Under the pieces are notes generated by a model that ran no database searches, was not told the origin of the DNA, and saw only the letters and a list, made by a program, of their open reading frames with translations. DNA of 47,072 nt from Chloroflexota bacterium (GTDB lineage: Bacteria; Chloroflexota; Anaerolineae; Anaerolineales; Villigracilaceae): assembly GCA_026390015.1 (NCBI GenBank), contig JAPLGS010000100.1, forward strand, positions 1 through 47,072. Direction: 5' to 3'. Shown piece after piece: positions 1,970-13,134 of this stretch. Numbering within the stretch: the stretch's first letter is position 1; the number at the start of each line of letters is the position of its first letter. Made by a program: the position numbers and the translations under genes.

Positions 1970-1978
1970 TGTTATAAT
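1970..1978 (+). promoter_or_regulatory. Extended -10 promoter ahead of the FMN riboswitch
   Basis: TGTTATAAT (TGn plus perfect TATAAT) lies in the valS-riboswitch gap. A start about 7 nt after it would begin the transcript near 1985, just ahead of the first riboswitch stem at 1994. I see no good -35 box at 17 bp, in keeping with extended -10 promoters. Assignment is by consensus only. Confidence 0.65.
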
Positions 1979-1993
1979 CACTATAACTTAATA

Positions 1994-2129
1994 ACCTTCG
2001 GGGCAGGGTGACATTTGCGCCATAAATATATGCAAGTGAATTCCCGATCGGTGGTAAAGCCCACGAGCGCGCAAGCGCATGATCTGGTGTAATTCCAGAG
2101 CCGACAGTATAGTCTGGATAGTAGAAGGT
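1994..2129 (+). ncRNA. FMN riboswitch (RFN element)
   Basis: Cis-acting leader RNA that binds flavin mononucleotide. Seen in order: P1 strand ACCTTC closing with GAAGGT at 2124-2129; the conserved blocks CGGGGCAGGGTGA, ATTCCCGATCGGTGGTAAAG, CCCACGAGCGC, GTGTAATTCCAGAGCCGAC and AGTATAGTCTGGAT. These match the RFN consensus almost base for base. Two features are variable: a short GCGC-GCAA-GCGC hairpin in the usual variable arm, and an extra stem inserted in the P2 loop (2012-2018 with 2032-2038). It precedes the ABC transporter operon and is followed by two intrinsic terminators, so an OFF switch acting when FMN is plentiful is the natural reading. Confidence 0.96.
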
Positions 2130-2136
2130 AAAAACG

Positions 2137-2159
2137 ACATGACCCGCGCGGGTTGATGT
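2137..2159 (+). promoter_or_regulatory. Possible linker hairpin between riboswitch and terminator
   Basis: ACAT-(GA)-CCCGC pairs with GCGGG-(TTG)-ATGT to give a compact hairpin directly after the aptamer. It may be a spacer element or part of the antiterminator/terminator exchange; the sequence does not decide which. Confidence 0.4.
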
Positions 2160-2171
2160 GTTGATTCACGC

Positions 2172-2205
2172 CCCGAAAACATTTACTGTTTTCGGGATTT
2201 TTATT
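2172..2205 (+). terminator. Intrinsic terminator 1 of the FMN leader
   Basis: CCCGAAAAC (2172-2180) pairs perfectly with GTTTTCGGG (2188-2196) around a 7-nt loop, followed by ATTTTTATT. It lies 42 nt after the aptamer and before the first transporter gene, as expected for riboswitch-controlled attenuation. Confidence 0.85.
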
Positions 2206-2251
2206 CTGACGTGCTTCCGCATCAGCTTTGTGTCCGTCACGGCTTGTTTCT

Positions 2252-2287
2252 ACGCCCCGCAGTTAATCCTAGCGAGGCGTTTTTTTT
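2252..2287 (+). terminator. Intrinsic terminator 2 of the FMN leader
   Basis: ACGCCCCGC (2252-2260) pairs with GCGAGGCGT (2272-2280) with one C-A mismatch and an 11-nt loop, followed by a run of T to 2287. It ends only about 15 nt before the permease start codon, so it must be read through for expression. Two consecutive terminators in one leader are uncommon. Confidence 0.8.
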
Positions 2288-2302
2288 GACAGGATACCGA
2301 TC

Positions 2303-3097
2303 ATGGATATCAATCCTTTAAAAGTATTTCATCCCTCTTCTGCGAAGCGAAATGGAATGTGGCTGCGTGTACTTTCACTTGGCCTGGGATTAGTCTGTTG
2401 GCAGATCACCTCCATTTTTTCAGGCGTGGAAGTATTCATTTTGCCTCCGCCTCTGAAAGTGTGGTCACGCTTTTTAGTGGCCGCGCAGGACGGAAGTTTG
2501 TTCCGTGATATTGGCGTGACCTTTTCGGAAGTAGTGTTGGGATTGATCGTTGGCGTCACGTTCGCCACGATCCTTGGATATTCGGTGGCAAAATCGCGTG
2601 CGTTGGAGCAAGTCCTGTCACCGTATTTGGTGGCGAGCCAAGCCATTCCTGTGGTTGCCATCGCGCCATTACTGGTGCTGTGGTTCGGATACGGCATGTT
2701 CTCCAAAGTATTGATCTGCGCCTTGATCGTTTTCTTCCCCGTGTTGATCAACACCATTGTCGGGATCCGCGCTGTGCCACAGGCATTTTATGATCTGATG
2801 AAATCCCTGCGTGCTTCGCGAAAACAGATATTGATGAAAGTGGAGATTCCCGCCGCTTTGCCGATCTTCCTCGGCGGATTGAGGATCGGCGCAACGTTAT
2901 CCGTGATCGGCGCGGTGGTGGGGGAATTGATCGGATCAAAGTATGGGCTGGGGAATCTCATCAACCGCGCGCGCGTTGGTTACGATATGCCGATGGTGTA
3001 TGTGGCTGTGTTCATGTTGATCTTTCTCGCGCTTGGTTTGTATGGAATTGTTGCGCGGATAGAAAAAAAACTTTTACGATGGCAGGAAGATAAATAA
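2303..3097 (+). CDS. ribX: ABC transporter permease, RibX type (riboflavin or precursor uptake)
   Basis: Inner-membrane permease of the nitrate/sulfonate/thiamine-precursor (BPD_transp_1) family, 264 aa. Hydrophobic segments lie near residues 22-40, 74-92, 112-150, 190-212 and 230-252. The cytoplasmic EAA-type loop that docks the ATPase is visible around residues 164-190 (DLMKSLRASRKQIL). Sequence alone would suggest taurine or nitrate transport, but the FMN riboswitch directly upstream points to flavin uptake, matching RibXY transporters described from riboswitch genomics in Chloroflexi. First gene of a three-gene operon. Only a weak ribosome site (ACAGGA) precedes the ATG. Substrate is inferred, not seen. 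Confidence 0.85.
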   Translation: MDINPLKVFHPSSAKRNGMWLRVLSLGLGLVCWQITSIFSGVEVFILPPPLKVWSRFLVAAQDGSLFRDIGVTFSEVVLGLIVGVTFATILGYSVAKSRALEQVLSPYLVASQAIPVVAIAPLLVLWFGYGMFSKVLICALIVFFPVLINTIVGIRAVPQAFYDLMKSLRASRKQILMKVEIPAALPIFLGGLRIGATLSVIGAVVGELIGSKYGLGNLINRARVGYDMPMVYVAVFMLIFLALGLYGIVARIEKKLLRWQEDK

Positions 3098-3104
3098 AAA
3101 AACA

Positions 3105-3150
3105 ATGTCATTGCTTCGGACTAAAACCAGGAACGTCCCCGCAATGACAT
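3105..3150. repeat. Short palindromic repeat (GTCATTGC family) inside the operon
   Basis: ATGTCATTGC (3105-3114) and GCAATGACAT (3141-3150) form a perfect 10-bp inverted repeat. It shares its GTCATTGC ends with the longer element at 7773-7866. It lies between permease and lipoprotein genes and could fold in the mRNA just before the lipoprotein ribosome site. Confidence 0.75.
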
Positions 3151-3168
3151 ACCAAAAGGAGAGTCACA

Positions 3169-4149
3169 ATGTTGAAGAAATTAGGTTTACTTATGCTGGG
3201 GGTGGCGATGATTCTTTCGTCGTGTACCGGCACTAATTCCGCGAATGACGCGAAGACGATTCGGAAAATAAAACTGCCGATGGGCTACATCCCCAATATC
3301 CAGTATGCGCCGTTTTATGTCGCAGTCGAAAAAGGATATTTCTTAAAAGAGAGGCTCGAAATTGAATTTGATTATTCTTTCGAAACCGATGGCGTATCTT
3401 TGGTAGGTGCGGGTGAACTGCCGTTTGCGGTGGCTTCCGGTGAGCAGGTTTTGCTGGCGCGATCACAAGAATTGCCCGTGGTGTACGCGTTCGCGTGGTA
3501 TCAGAAATTTCCGATTTCGATCATCTCTGAACCTGATCTGAACATTAACAAACCCGCCGACCTGCGTGGACAGACGATCGGCTTGCCGGGTTTGTTTGGC
3601 GCGAATTATATCGGCTTGCAGGCTTTGCTTTTTTCTGCAGGATTAACCCCTGCAGACGTGACATTGGAAGCCATCGGGTTCAATCAAGTGGAAGCGTTTG
3701 CCTCTGGACAAAAAAATATTGTAGTTGGATACGCAACCAATGAGCCGATCATTCTAAATTCACAGGCGCATCCAGTAAACGAACTGCGCGTGGCTGATTA
3801 TTTGAAGTTGACAGCGAATGGTATTGTCACAAGCGAGATGACGATCAAAGATGAACCTGAACTCGTGCGCAGCATGGCGCGCGCGCTGGCACATGGCATT
3901 GCCGATACGATCGCAAATCCTGATCAGGCATATACCATCAGTGAAAAATATATCGAAGGTCTTGCTGATATGGATAAGACGGTTCAGATGCTGGTGCTCA
4001 CAACATCCATTGAATTTTGGCAGGCTGAGCGGATCGGTTTTTCCAATCCGCAAGCATGGCAGAATATGAATGATCTGCTTGTGAAAATGGAACTGATCAA
4101 GGAGCCGCTGGATGTGAACCAGGCGTTCACGAATGAGTTCGTGCCGTAG
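3169..4149 (+). CDS. ribY: ABC transporter substrate-binding lipoprotein, RibY type (NMT1/THI5-like)
   Basis: Solute receptor of the uptake system, 326 aa. The N-terminus is a type II signal peptide with lipobox LSSC and lipidated Cys19, so the mature protein is membrane-anchored outside the cell. The body is an NMT1/THI5-like periplasmic-binding fold: it opens with GYIPNIQYAPFYVAVEKGYF, typical of receptors for aromatic heterocycles (thiamine-pyrimidine, riboflavin) and sulfonates, and has the LRGQTIGLPG segment. Good ribosome site AAAGGAGAG before ATG. Position behind the FMN riboswitch and RibX makes flavin or a flavin precursor the likely ligand; this part is inference. Confidence 0.85.
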   Translation: MLKKLGLLMLGVAMILSSCTGTNSANDAKTIRKIKLPMGYIPNIQYAPFYVAVEKGYFLKERLEIEFDYSFETDGVSLVGAGELPFAVASGEQVLLARSQELPVVYAFAWYQKFPISIISEPDLNINKPADLRGQTIGLPGLFGANYIGLQALLFSAGLTPADVTLEAIGFNQVEAFASGQKNIVVGYATNEPIILNSQAHPVNELRVADYLKLTANGIVTSEMTIKDEPELVRSMARALAHGIADTIANPDQAYTISEKYIEGLADMDKTVQMLVLTTSIEFWQAERIGFSNPQAWQNMNDLLVKMELIKEPLDVNQAFTNEFVP

Positions 4150-4212
4150 AAATATTAACCATAAAAAATGCGAAGGGCAGACTTAAACCTCAATGTCCTT
4201 CGTGATAAAAAT

Positions 4213-4959
4213 ATGAGCACACAACCGATCCTCACCGTAAAAAATCTTTCCGTTGTCTTCCCTGACAGCAACGGCGGTCTTCACGCGCTTGATGATATTT
4301 CCTTTGAAGTCTATCCGCGTGACTTTATTTGTTTTCTCGGCCCATCGGGTTCGGGCAAGACCACGCTCTTAAGAATTCTCGCGAGTCTTCTGCGGCCCAC
4401 AACGGGCGAGATAAACTTCATCCACAATCAACATCCGCAGATCGGCATGGTCTTTCAGCAATCCAACCTTATGCCGTGGCGCACTGTGATGGACAACATC
4501 AAGCTTCCACTTGAGTTGGAAAACATGGACGAATCCACAGCCCGCATCAAGGCGCAGGAAATGATCGAACTCGTTGGATTGAATGGCTTCGAGGATTCAT
4601 GGCCGCGAGATTTATCCGGCGGGATGGCACAGCGCGTGGCGATCGCGCGCGCACTCATCCATGACCCGGACCTGCTCCTGCTCGATGAGCCTTTTGGCTC
4701 GCTGGATGCGATCACCCGCGAACGCATGTGGACGGAGTTATCGCGCATCTGGCAGGCCAGGCAAAAGACCGTCATCATGGTGACGCACTCCATTAATGAA
4801 TCCTTGTTTTTAGCAGACAGGGTTTTGGTATTAACCCAGCGTCCCGGCAAAATAAAATTCGATTTAAAAGTTGATCTACCCCGCCCAAGAAATGATGATA
4901 TTCGCTACACTCCGCACTTTGGGAAACTGGCGCGGAAATTAAGAGAGACGATTGAATAA
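4213..4959 (+). CDS. ABC transporter ATP-binding protein (TauB/SsuB family) of the RibXY system
   Basis: ATPase that powers the uptake system, 248 aa from the chosen start. Seen: Walker A GPSGSGKTT (43-51), Q-loop around Q82, signature LSGGM (134-138), Walker B LLLLDE (154-159), D-loop SLD and the switch His192 in VTHS. All catalytic residues are present. An in-frame ATG at 4168 would add 15 residues, but MSTQPILTVKNLSV is the usual beginning of this family, so 4213 is preferred; neither start has a clear ribosome site. Last gene of the operon, 63 bp after the lipoprotein gene and followed by a strong terminator. Confidence 0.9.
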   Translation: MSTQPILTVKNLSVVFPDSNGGLHALDDISFEVYPRDFICFLGPSGSGKTTLLRILASLLRPTTGEINFIHNQHPQIGMVFQQSNLMPWRTVMDNIKLPLELENMDESTARIKAQEMIELVGLNGFEDSWPRDLSGGMAQRVAIARALIHDPDLLLLDEPFGSLDAITRERMWTELSRIWQARQKTVIMVTHSINESLFLADRVLVLTQRPGKIKFDLKVDLPRPRNDDIRYTPHFGKLARKLRETIE

Positions 4960-4962
4960 GAG

Positions 4963-4998
4963 AAACATCCTTCAGATCATATGATCTGAAGGATGTTT
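4963..4998. terminator. Perfect 36-bp palindrome, bidirectional terminator
   Basis: AAACATCCTTCAGATCAT is followed directly by its exact reverse complement, then TTG. The 18-bp arms have no spacer. It sits between the convergent ABC operon and STAS gene and has A-rich/T-rich flanks on both sides, so it probably ends transcription from both strands. Confidence 0.88.
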
Positions 4999-5033
4999 TT
5001 GACTGTTGAAAATTTTGCAAATTACGCGATCGA

Positions 5034-6830: not shown

Positions 6831-6834
6831 TCCC

Positions 6835-6853
6835 AATCAAAAATCGTAAATCG
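6835..6853. repeat. Dispersed 19-bp repeat, copy 1
   Basis: AATCAAAAATCGTAAATCG occurs here and, in exact reverse complement, at 13072-13090. Both copies are intergenic and both adjoin another repeat type. Confidence 0.8.
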
Positions 6854-7772: not shown

Positions 7773-7866
7773 GTCATTGCGAGGGCGCTCTTGCTCTTCG
7801 CCCGAAGCAATCTTCACTACGACGAGGAGATTGCTTTGTCGGGAAAAACATCCTCCTTGCAATGAC
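7773..7866. repeat. REP-like palindromic element, GTCATTGC family
   Basis: A 94-bp interrupted palindrome: outer arms GTCATTGC (7773-7780) and GCAATGAC (7859-7866), with inner arms GAAGCAATCT (7804-7813) and AGATTGCTTTGTC (7828-7840). It fills the gap between the PBP and rsgA genes. Elements with these GTCATTGCGAG ends are widely dispersed in many environmental bacterial genomes. Confidence 0.8.
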
Positions 7867-13071: not shown

Positions 13072-13090
13072 CGATTTACGATTTTTGATT
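13072..13090. repeat. Dispersed 19-bp repeat, copy 2
   Basis: Exact reverse complement of 6835-6853. It runs straight into the GGTGGTCGAGTAG element that starts at 13091. Confidence 0.8.
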
Positions 13091-13134
13091 GGTGGTCGAG
13101 TAGGCAAGCGTTCTTCTTACCGTATCGAGACTAC
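13091..13134. repeat. GGTGGTCGAGTAG / CGTATCGAGAC imperfect palindrome, copy 1
   Basis: Starts GGTGGTCGAGTAGG and ends CGTATCGAGACTAC, which is an imperfect inverse of the start. A second copy is at 29043-29084. Similar elements with these two ends are familiar as dispersed intergenic repeats in actinobacterial genomes. Confidence 0.7.

Follow-up and report, generated by a model that had tools for sequence, protein, structure and literature searches.

The locus that opens at position 1970 of the window, by which we mean the whole stretch of 47,072 nucleotides analysed here, looks like a complete vitamin B2 importer under an FMN-sensing RNA, and we give a probability of about 93% to its being a RibXYZ-type riboflavin importer that FMN represses. 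Riboflavin is favoured as the substrate by descent, by regulation and by metabolic need. The computed basis comprises the aptamer, the genes, kinship with a RibY of tested function, three biosynthesis enzymes that find no match in the host, and the hairpins and complementary strands of the leader. RibXYZ with an ATPase is already known in related bacteria, so that the locus adds a new case; the only less ordinary part of it is the successive terminators after one aptamer.

RESULTS

An FMN riboswitch precedes permease, receptor and ATPase genes

The entire window was scanned with Rfam on both strands at gathering cut-offs, and RF00050 was the sole family above its cut-off. The match covers the full length of the aptamer model (positions 1–138) with 95.9 bits against a cut-off of 66.2 bits (E = 5.1e-21), and the leader is therefore a member of the FMN riboswitch aptamer family. 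The initial annotation, made from the sequence, had placed an FMN riboswitch leader at 1994–2129; the Rfam element is the same one with a few more terminal bases (Table 1). It is also the single FMN riboswitch in the whole host assembly (4.3 Mb, 177 contigs). A −35/−10 consensus scan did not return the putative promoter element at 1970–1978 among its matches.

Table 1. Features of the leader and the transcription unit (positions in the window; energies in kcal/mol)
Feature	Position	Strand	Basis and remarks
Possible extended −10 promoter element, TGTTATAAT	1970–1978	+	Putative, read from sequence; ~12 bases 5′ of aptamer
FMN riboswitch aptamer (RFN element)	1990–2133	+	RF00050
Aptamer 5′ strand TTCGGGGC: final 3 bases of P1 and following core bases	1997–2004	+	Complement search
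Small hairpin between aptamer and T1	2137–2159	+	−9.3, z −1.92; modest gain over shuffles
Terminator T1 (stem 2172–2196) with T-rich tail; 5′ arm is the proposed antiterminator partner	2170–2205	+	−14.5, z −5.65; in terminator scan
Terminator-like hairpin T2 (ACGCCCCGC...GCGAGGCGT) with eight T	2252–2287	+	−12.8, z −3.86
Likely ribosome-binding site, CAGGA	2290–2294	+	Read from sequence; two bases after T2
ribX, ABC permease, 264 aa	2303–3097	+	PF00528 BPD_transp_1, E = 7.4e-33
Inverted repeat ATGTCATTGC ... GCAATGACAT in ribX–ribY gap	3105–3150	+	−17.8, z −5.5
ribY, substrate-binding protein, 326 aa	3169–4149	+	PF09084 NMT1, E = 6.3e-43
ribZ, ABC ATPase, 248 aa	4213–4959	+	PF00005 ABC_tran, E = 6e-32
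17-pair hairpin closing the unit, common to the facing STAS-domain gene	4962–4999	+	−25.1, z −8.97

Three genes follow in one run, and the ABC_tran match of the third bears out the earlier proposal that the ATPase gene shares the operon with ribX and ribY. RibY carries a lipobox-like LSSC at residues 16–19 (by eye). For ribZ we took the start at 4213 rather than 4168 from a reading of the sequence; its translation contains GPSGSGKT, LSGGM and LLLLDEP, which we take to be Walker A, signature and Walker B motifs, respectively, and this ATPase would serve this permease. No NCBIfam model reached its curated cut-off among all matches of RibX and RibY, or among the best 25 of the 190 matches of RibZ. 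Upstream, the neighbouring gene, presumably for valyl-tRNA synthetase by its translation, ends at 1936; downstream, the neighbour of ribZ is a STAS-domain gene in opposite orientation, and the terminator scan reports the hairpin between them on the minus strand.

The inverted repeat in the ribX–ribY gap could be dispersed repetitive DNA with no role in the mechanism. The sequence GTCATTGC is present nine times in the window, where 2.8 copies would be expected, with facing pairs at this gap and at 7773–7866, and looks like a dispersed palindromic repeat. Elsewhere in the window, 6833–6853 and 13072–13092 form a perfect inverted repeat of 21 bases, 6.2 kb apart.

The receptor groups with RibY of a Chloroflexus aurantiacus-like locus

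Published work on flavin transport is cited here from excerpts of the papers. PMC4418817 gives primers for cloning the C. aurantiacus ribXY operon (Caur_0816-0817; PMC4418817, PMC3766115), and a search of 400 genomes from the phylum found the forward primer in a single one. The region from that genome holds both primers around an FMN riboswitch, ribX and ribY, and on the strength of both published primers we take the genome to be probably C. aurantiacus and used it as the C. aurantiacus-like reference. Window RibX is 46% identical to the reference RibX (239 columns), and window RibY is 43% identical to the reference RibY (304 columns, residues 31–326 of 326, E = 3e-79); the latter lies above the initial threshold for RibY excerpted from PMC4418817 (>38% identity to C. 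aurantiacus RibY with coverage of ≥80%). According to the same excerpt, an E. coli ribB mutant could grow at low riboflavin when given C. aurantiacus ribXY.

A tree of 45 proteins, to which alignment A1 contributed 26 of its 37 rows, unites window RibY, 25 relatives and the C. aurantiacus-like RibY in one clade with support 97/91, and removal of TauA, SsuA, a host paralogue and 4nmy leaves the support at 95/92, with ThiY (PDB 3ix1) and the paralogues still outside. The trees are midpoint-rooted, the long rows SsuA, TauA, host paralogue, 4nmy and 3ix1 are flagged as unsure, and 3ix1 and 4nmy are partial. The locus has these traits of RibXY(Z): a riboswitch before ribX–ribY, a receptor within the RibY clade, and ribZ in the unit.

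The predicted RibY model (pLDDT 91.5) has the fold shared by the receptors of ThiXYZ, TauABC and SsuABC, and the latter two systems belong to the same transporter superfamily. Its best fold match is the ThiY-like 3ix1 (Z 32.5 over 294 residues, 24% identity), ahead of thiamin-bound 4nmy (Z 30.9, 23%), SsuA (Z 25.4) and TauA (Z 22.7). The closest solved relatives, by sequence as well as by fold, are thiamin-precursor or thiamin binding proteins (22–24% identical), and among the structure matches listed there was no flavin-binding receptor of RibY's family. These matches would suit a ThiXYZ-like importer for thiamin or a pyrimidine precursor, with the FMN riboswitch as cross-talk. We consider this very unlikely, because the window contains an FMN riboswitch but no TPP riboswitch above cut-off, in several families of the order these genes follow an FMN riboswitch, as does ribY in all 30 loci scanned from the best 80 of 529 named relatives, the receptor is 43% identical to the tested RibY, and the trees leave 3ix1 and 4nmy out of the RibY clade, albeit with long branches and partial sequences.

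The proteins alone could also be read as an importer for taurine or nitrate, as had been noticed at the outset, or for sulfonate, and sub-threshold matches to SsuA and to taurine and nitrate permease and ATPase models were indeed seen. Such a function is almost certainly wrong for this locus: the receptor misses the TauA/SsuA cut-offs, with 53.3 bits where 163.5 are needed and 22.7 bits where 304.25 are needed, E. coli TauA and SsuA stay outside the clade that joins the receptor to RibY of the C. aurantiacus-like locus (with the reservation of long branches), and an FMN riboswitch is present.

The host seems unable to make riboflavin

In the host assembly (95% complete, 3.9% contaminated), RibH, RibB and RibE were unmatched, and the positive controls for these searches matched in 14, 14 and 11 of 14 named genomes, respectively. 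The host thus seems unable to make riboflavin, and at this completeness and contamination the absence of ribB, ribE and ribH is likely rather than certain. One riboflavin kinase was found.

The host does retain RibA, as two GTP cyclohydrolase II genes, together with a RibD-type reductase (regions L203, 645-2809, minus strand, and L204, 1339-2085, minus strand), as might be expected if a riboflavin precursor such as a lumazine were imported. An imported precursor could not be completed, however, with RibB, RibE and RibH unmatched, and the excerpt of PMC4418817 has the C. aurantiacus operon working with riboflavin; precursor import is accordingly extremely unlikely. The initial annotation had named riboflavin or a precursor as substrate: the first part is supported by the kinship of RibY and by the riboswitch, and the second is disfavoured by the gaps in the pathway. 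Judged from gene content, riboflavin (or FMN/FAD) is the likely substrate.

One of the two GTP cyclohydrolase II genes overlaps the RibD-type reductase gene (TIGR01508 above cut-off) and abuts a short-chain dehydrogenase gene. F420 was considered as a reason for retaining RibA and the RibD reductase, and was rejected, as the CofH model was unmatched in the host assembly.

Most relatives examined carry the importer together with an ATPase gene

We compared 61 genomes, namely the host, 36 of its genus and 24 others of the order. The FMN riboswitch was found in 57 of them, above cut-off in 55, and 57 riboswitch loci of relatives were examined, not counting one more riboswitch match in G019 that lies at the end of a contig. 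These riboswitches precede either ribXY(Z) or riboflavin biosynthesis genes. All of ribX, ribY and ribZ occur at 45 of the 57 loci, some of them cut by contig ends and with RibX split over two frames in G017 and G037. Three loci have ribX and ribY without ribZ despite ~2 kb of room (G005, G032 and G039), and may borrow an ATPase. The rest comprise five loci with riboflavin biosynthesis genes, two cut by contig ends and two too short, one of which shows all three genes in a longer stretch. At two of the ribZ-less loci (L059 in G005, L077 in G032; the third is L094 in G039) the gene after ribXY is endonuclease III-like by eye.

In G049 all three genes are present but lack a detectable FMN riboswitch (L106, 1107-3765). 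The other genomes without a riboswitch, G002, G014 and G035, are 71–85% complete; G014 has a piece of RibY at 71%, G035 a piece of 24 residues, and G002 just relatives of 26–28%.

RibH and RibB match in the same five of the 61 genomes, in G034 as short pieces only. Two of the five (G034, G038) also have a RibY relative of >50% identity, and the other three (G045, G050, G058) have none. In G034 (L081, contig C356) an FMN riboswitch stands before shortened-looking riboflavin biosynthesis genes, and ribXY is carried under a separate FMN riboswitch; this double arrangement is possibly an effect of assembly or contamination.

Among the best 80 of 529 named relatives, ribX was found in all 80 and ribZ in 77, one of the three exceptions leaving only 175 bases of room; the named relatives overlap with the 61-genome set, and the two counts are not independent.

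Two hairpins follow the aptamer and share complementarity with it

Between the aptamer and ribX the leader can form T1 and T2. The terminator scan misses T2 because it allows loops of at most 8 bases, and its overall yield in the window is not above chance (6 found versus 3.8 ± 1.8 in shuffles). The aptamer strand TTCGGGGC is the exact complement of GCCCCGAA (2170–2177) in the 5′ arm of T1, and its last six bases, CGGGGC (1999–2004), are the complement of 2254–2259 in T2. The predicted duplexes of the aptamer strand reach −16.9 kcal/mol with the T1 arm and −14.3 kcal/mol with the T2 arm.

Conservation was followed in 34 leaders of the genus, the window included; the genus set holds three more genomes, in which no riboswitch was matched. 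By alignment and looser patterns, the T1 motif is found in all 34 and the T2 motif with its T run in 33, the remaining extract (G003) stopping short of the T run. A strict script, which demands CC[CT]CG in the 5′ arm, counts two hairpins in 13 of the 31 genus leaders, in 6 of 19 from elsewhere in the order and in 1 of 5 that precede riboflavin biosynthesis genes, and the C. aurantiacus-like leader shows none; the genus-wide occurrence of two terminators is based on the alignment and looser patterns and not on this script. Changes on both sides were seen in only 2 of 15 predicted pairs of T1 and T2, and the two hairpins therefore rest on conservation and energy.

In 28 of the 34 genus leaders the 5′ arm of T2 reads GCCCCG opposite a 3′ arm GAGGC, which leaves a C–A mismatch; GCCTCG with GAGGC occurs in five and GCCCCG with GGGGC in one. 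That GCCCCG is kept despite a mismatch in its own stem hints, in leaders that are related by descent, that the T2 arm may also be selected for pairing with CGGGGC of the aptamer.

Across loci, the aptamer 5′ end has a complement of at least 7 bases within the following 260 bases in 53 of 55, compared with a mean of 10.7 in shuffles that keep base composition only (range 6–18, n = 50); the sequences are related, and the riboswitch loci in G019, G020 and G031 were left out. In G057 and G044 the Rfam match begins within the aptamer, so that the wrong 5′ strand was examined. The complement overlaps a terminator in 37 of the 55 loci.

DISCUSSION

Among the nearest described systems, RibXY of C. aurantiacus has the same order of FMN riboswitch, permease and NMT1-type receptor. 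It differs in two respects: no relative of RibZ lies within the 9 kb examined of the C. aurantiacus-like locus, and its leader, in which the strict script detects no such hairpin, has one terminator by eye, where the window has two. RibXY was first named in Chloroflexi in PMC3766115, which in the text excerpted describes it without an ATPase and reports that Roseiflexus RibXY makes up for a missing riboflavin operon. Earlier work cited in the excerpt of PMC4418817 places a ribZ ATPase gene with ribXY in a few Chloroflexi and has RibY binding flavins, and RibXYZ is listed in the excerpt of PMC5312566. The three-component RibXYZ of Rodionova et al. (via PMC4418817 and PMC5312566), with its ATPase ribZ, agrees with the window as far as a comparison by description goes; those excerpts report it for a few species, and ribZ accompanies most of the best named relatives here.

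Riboswitches of this class usually turn their operons off when FMN binds. On the model that we propose, the lipoprotein RibY would capture riboflavin, RibX would move it across the membrane with power from RibZ, and the riboflavin kinase, encoded elsewhere, would convert it to FMN. When FMN is plentiful, it would bind the leader RNA and keep P1 closed, the terminator arms would remain free, and transcription would stop before ribX. Under FMN shortage, the aptamer strand would instead pair with the arm of T1, and transcription would continue. We infer substrate binding, the FMN response and the direction of the switch from the features described above.

More tentatively, and with the odds leaning against it, one FMN aptamer might work two gates in series, ~84 bases apart, for a very tight off state. 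Among the papers listed in our literature searches, none dealt with double terminators downstream of an FMN aptamer, which is weak evidence of absence (one of them, PMC5459577, as excerpted, concerns a guanine riboswitch). If both terminators respond to FMN, the pair would add modestly to what is known of riboswitch mechanics.

With the re-annotation, a gene cluster that an automatic pipeline might label as taurine/nitrate uptake is given its correct substrate. Among the relatives examined, the importer is as a rule accompanied by an ATPase gene, and genomes that match RibH and RibB are exceptional (5 of 61). We therefore predict that many such bacteria rely on their neighbours for vitamin B2, which could guide attempts to cultivate them.
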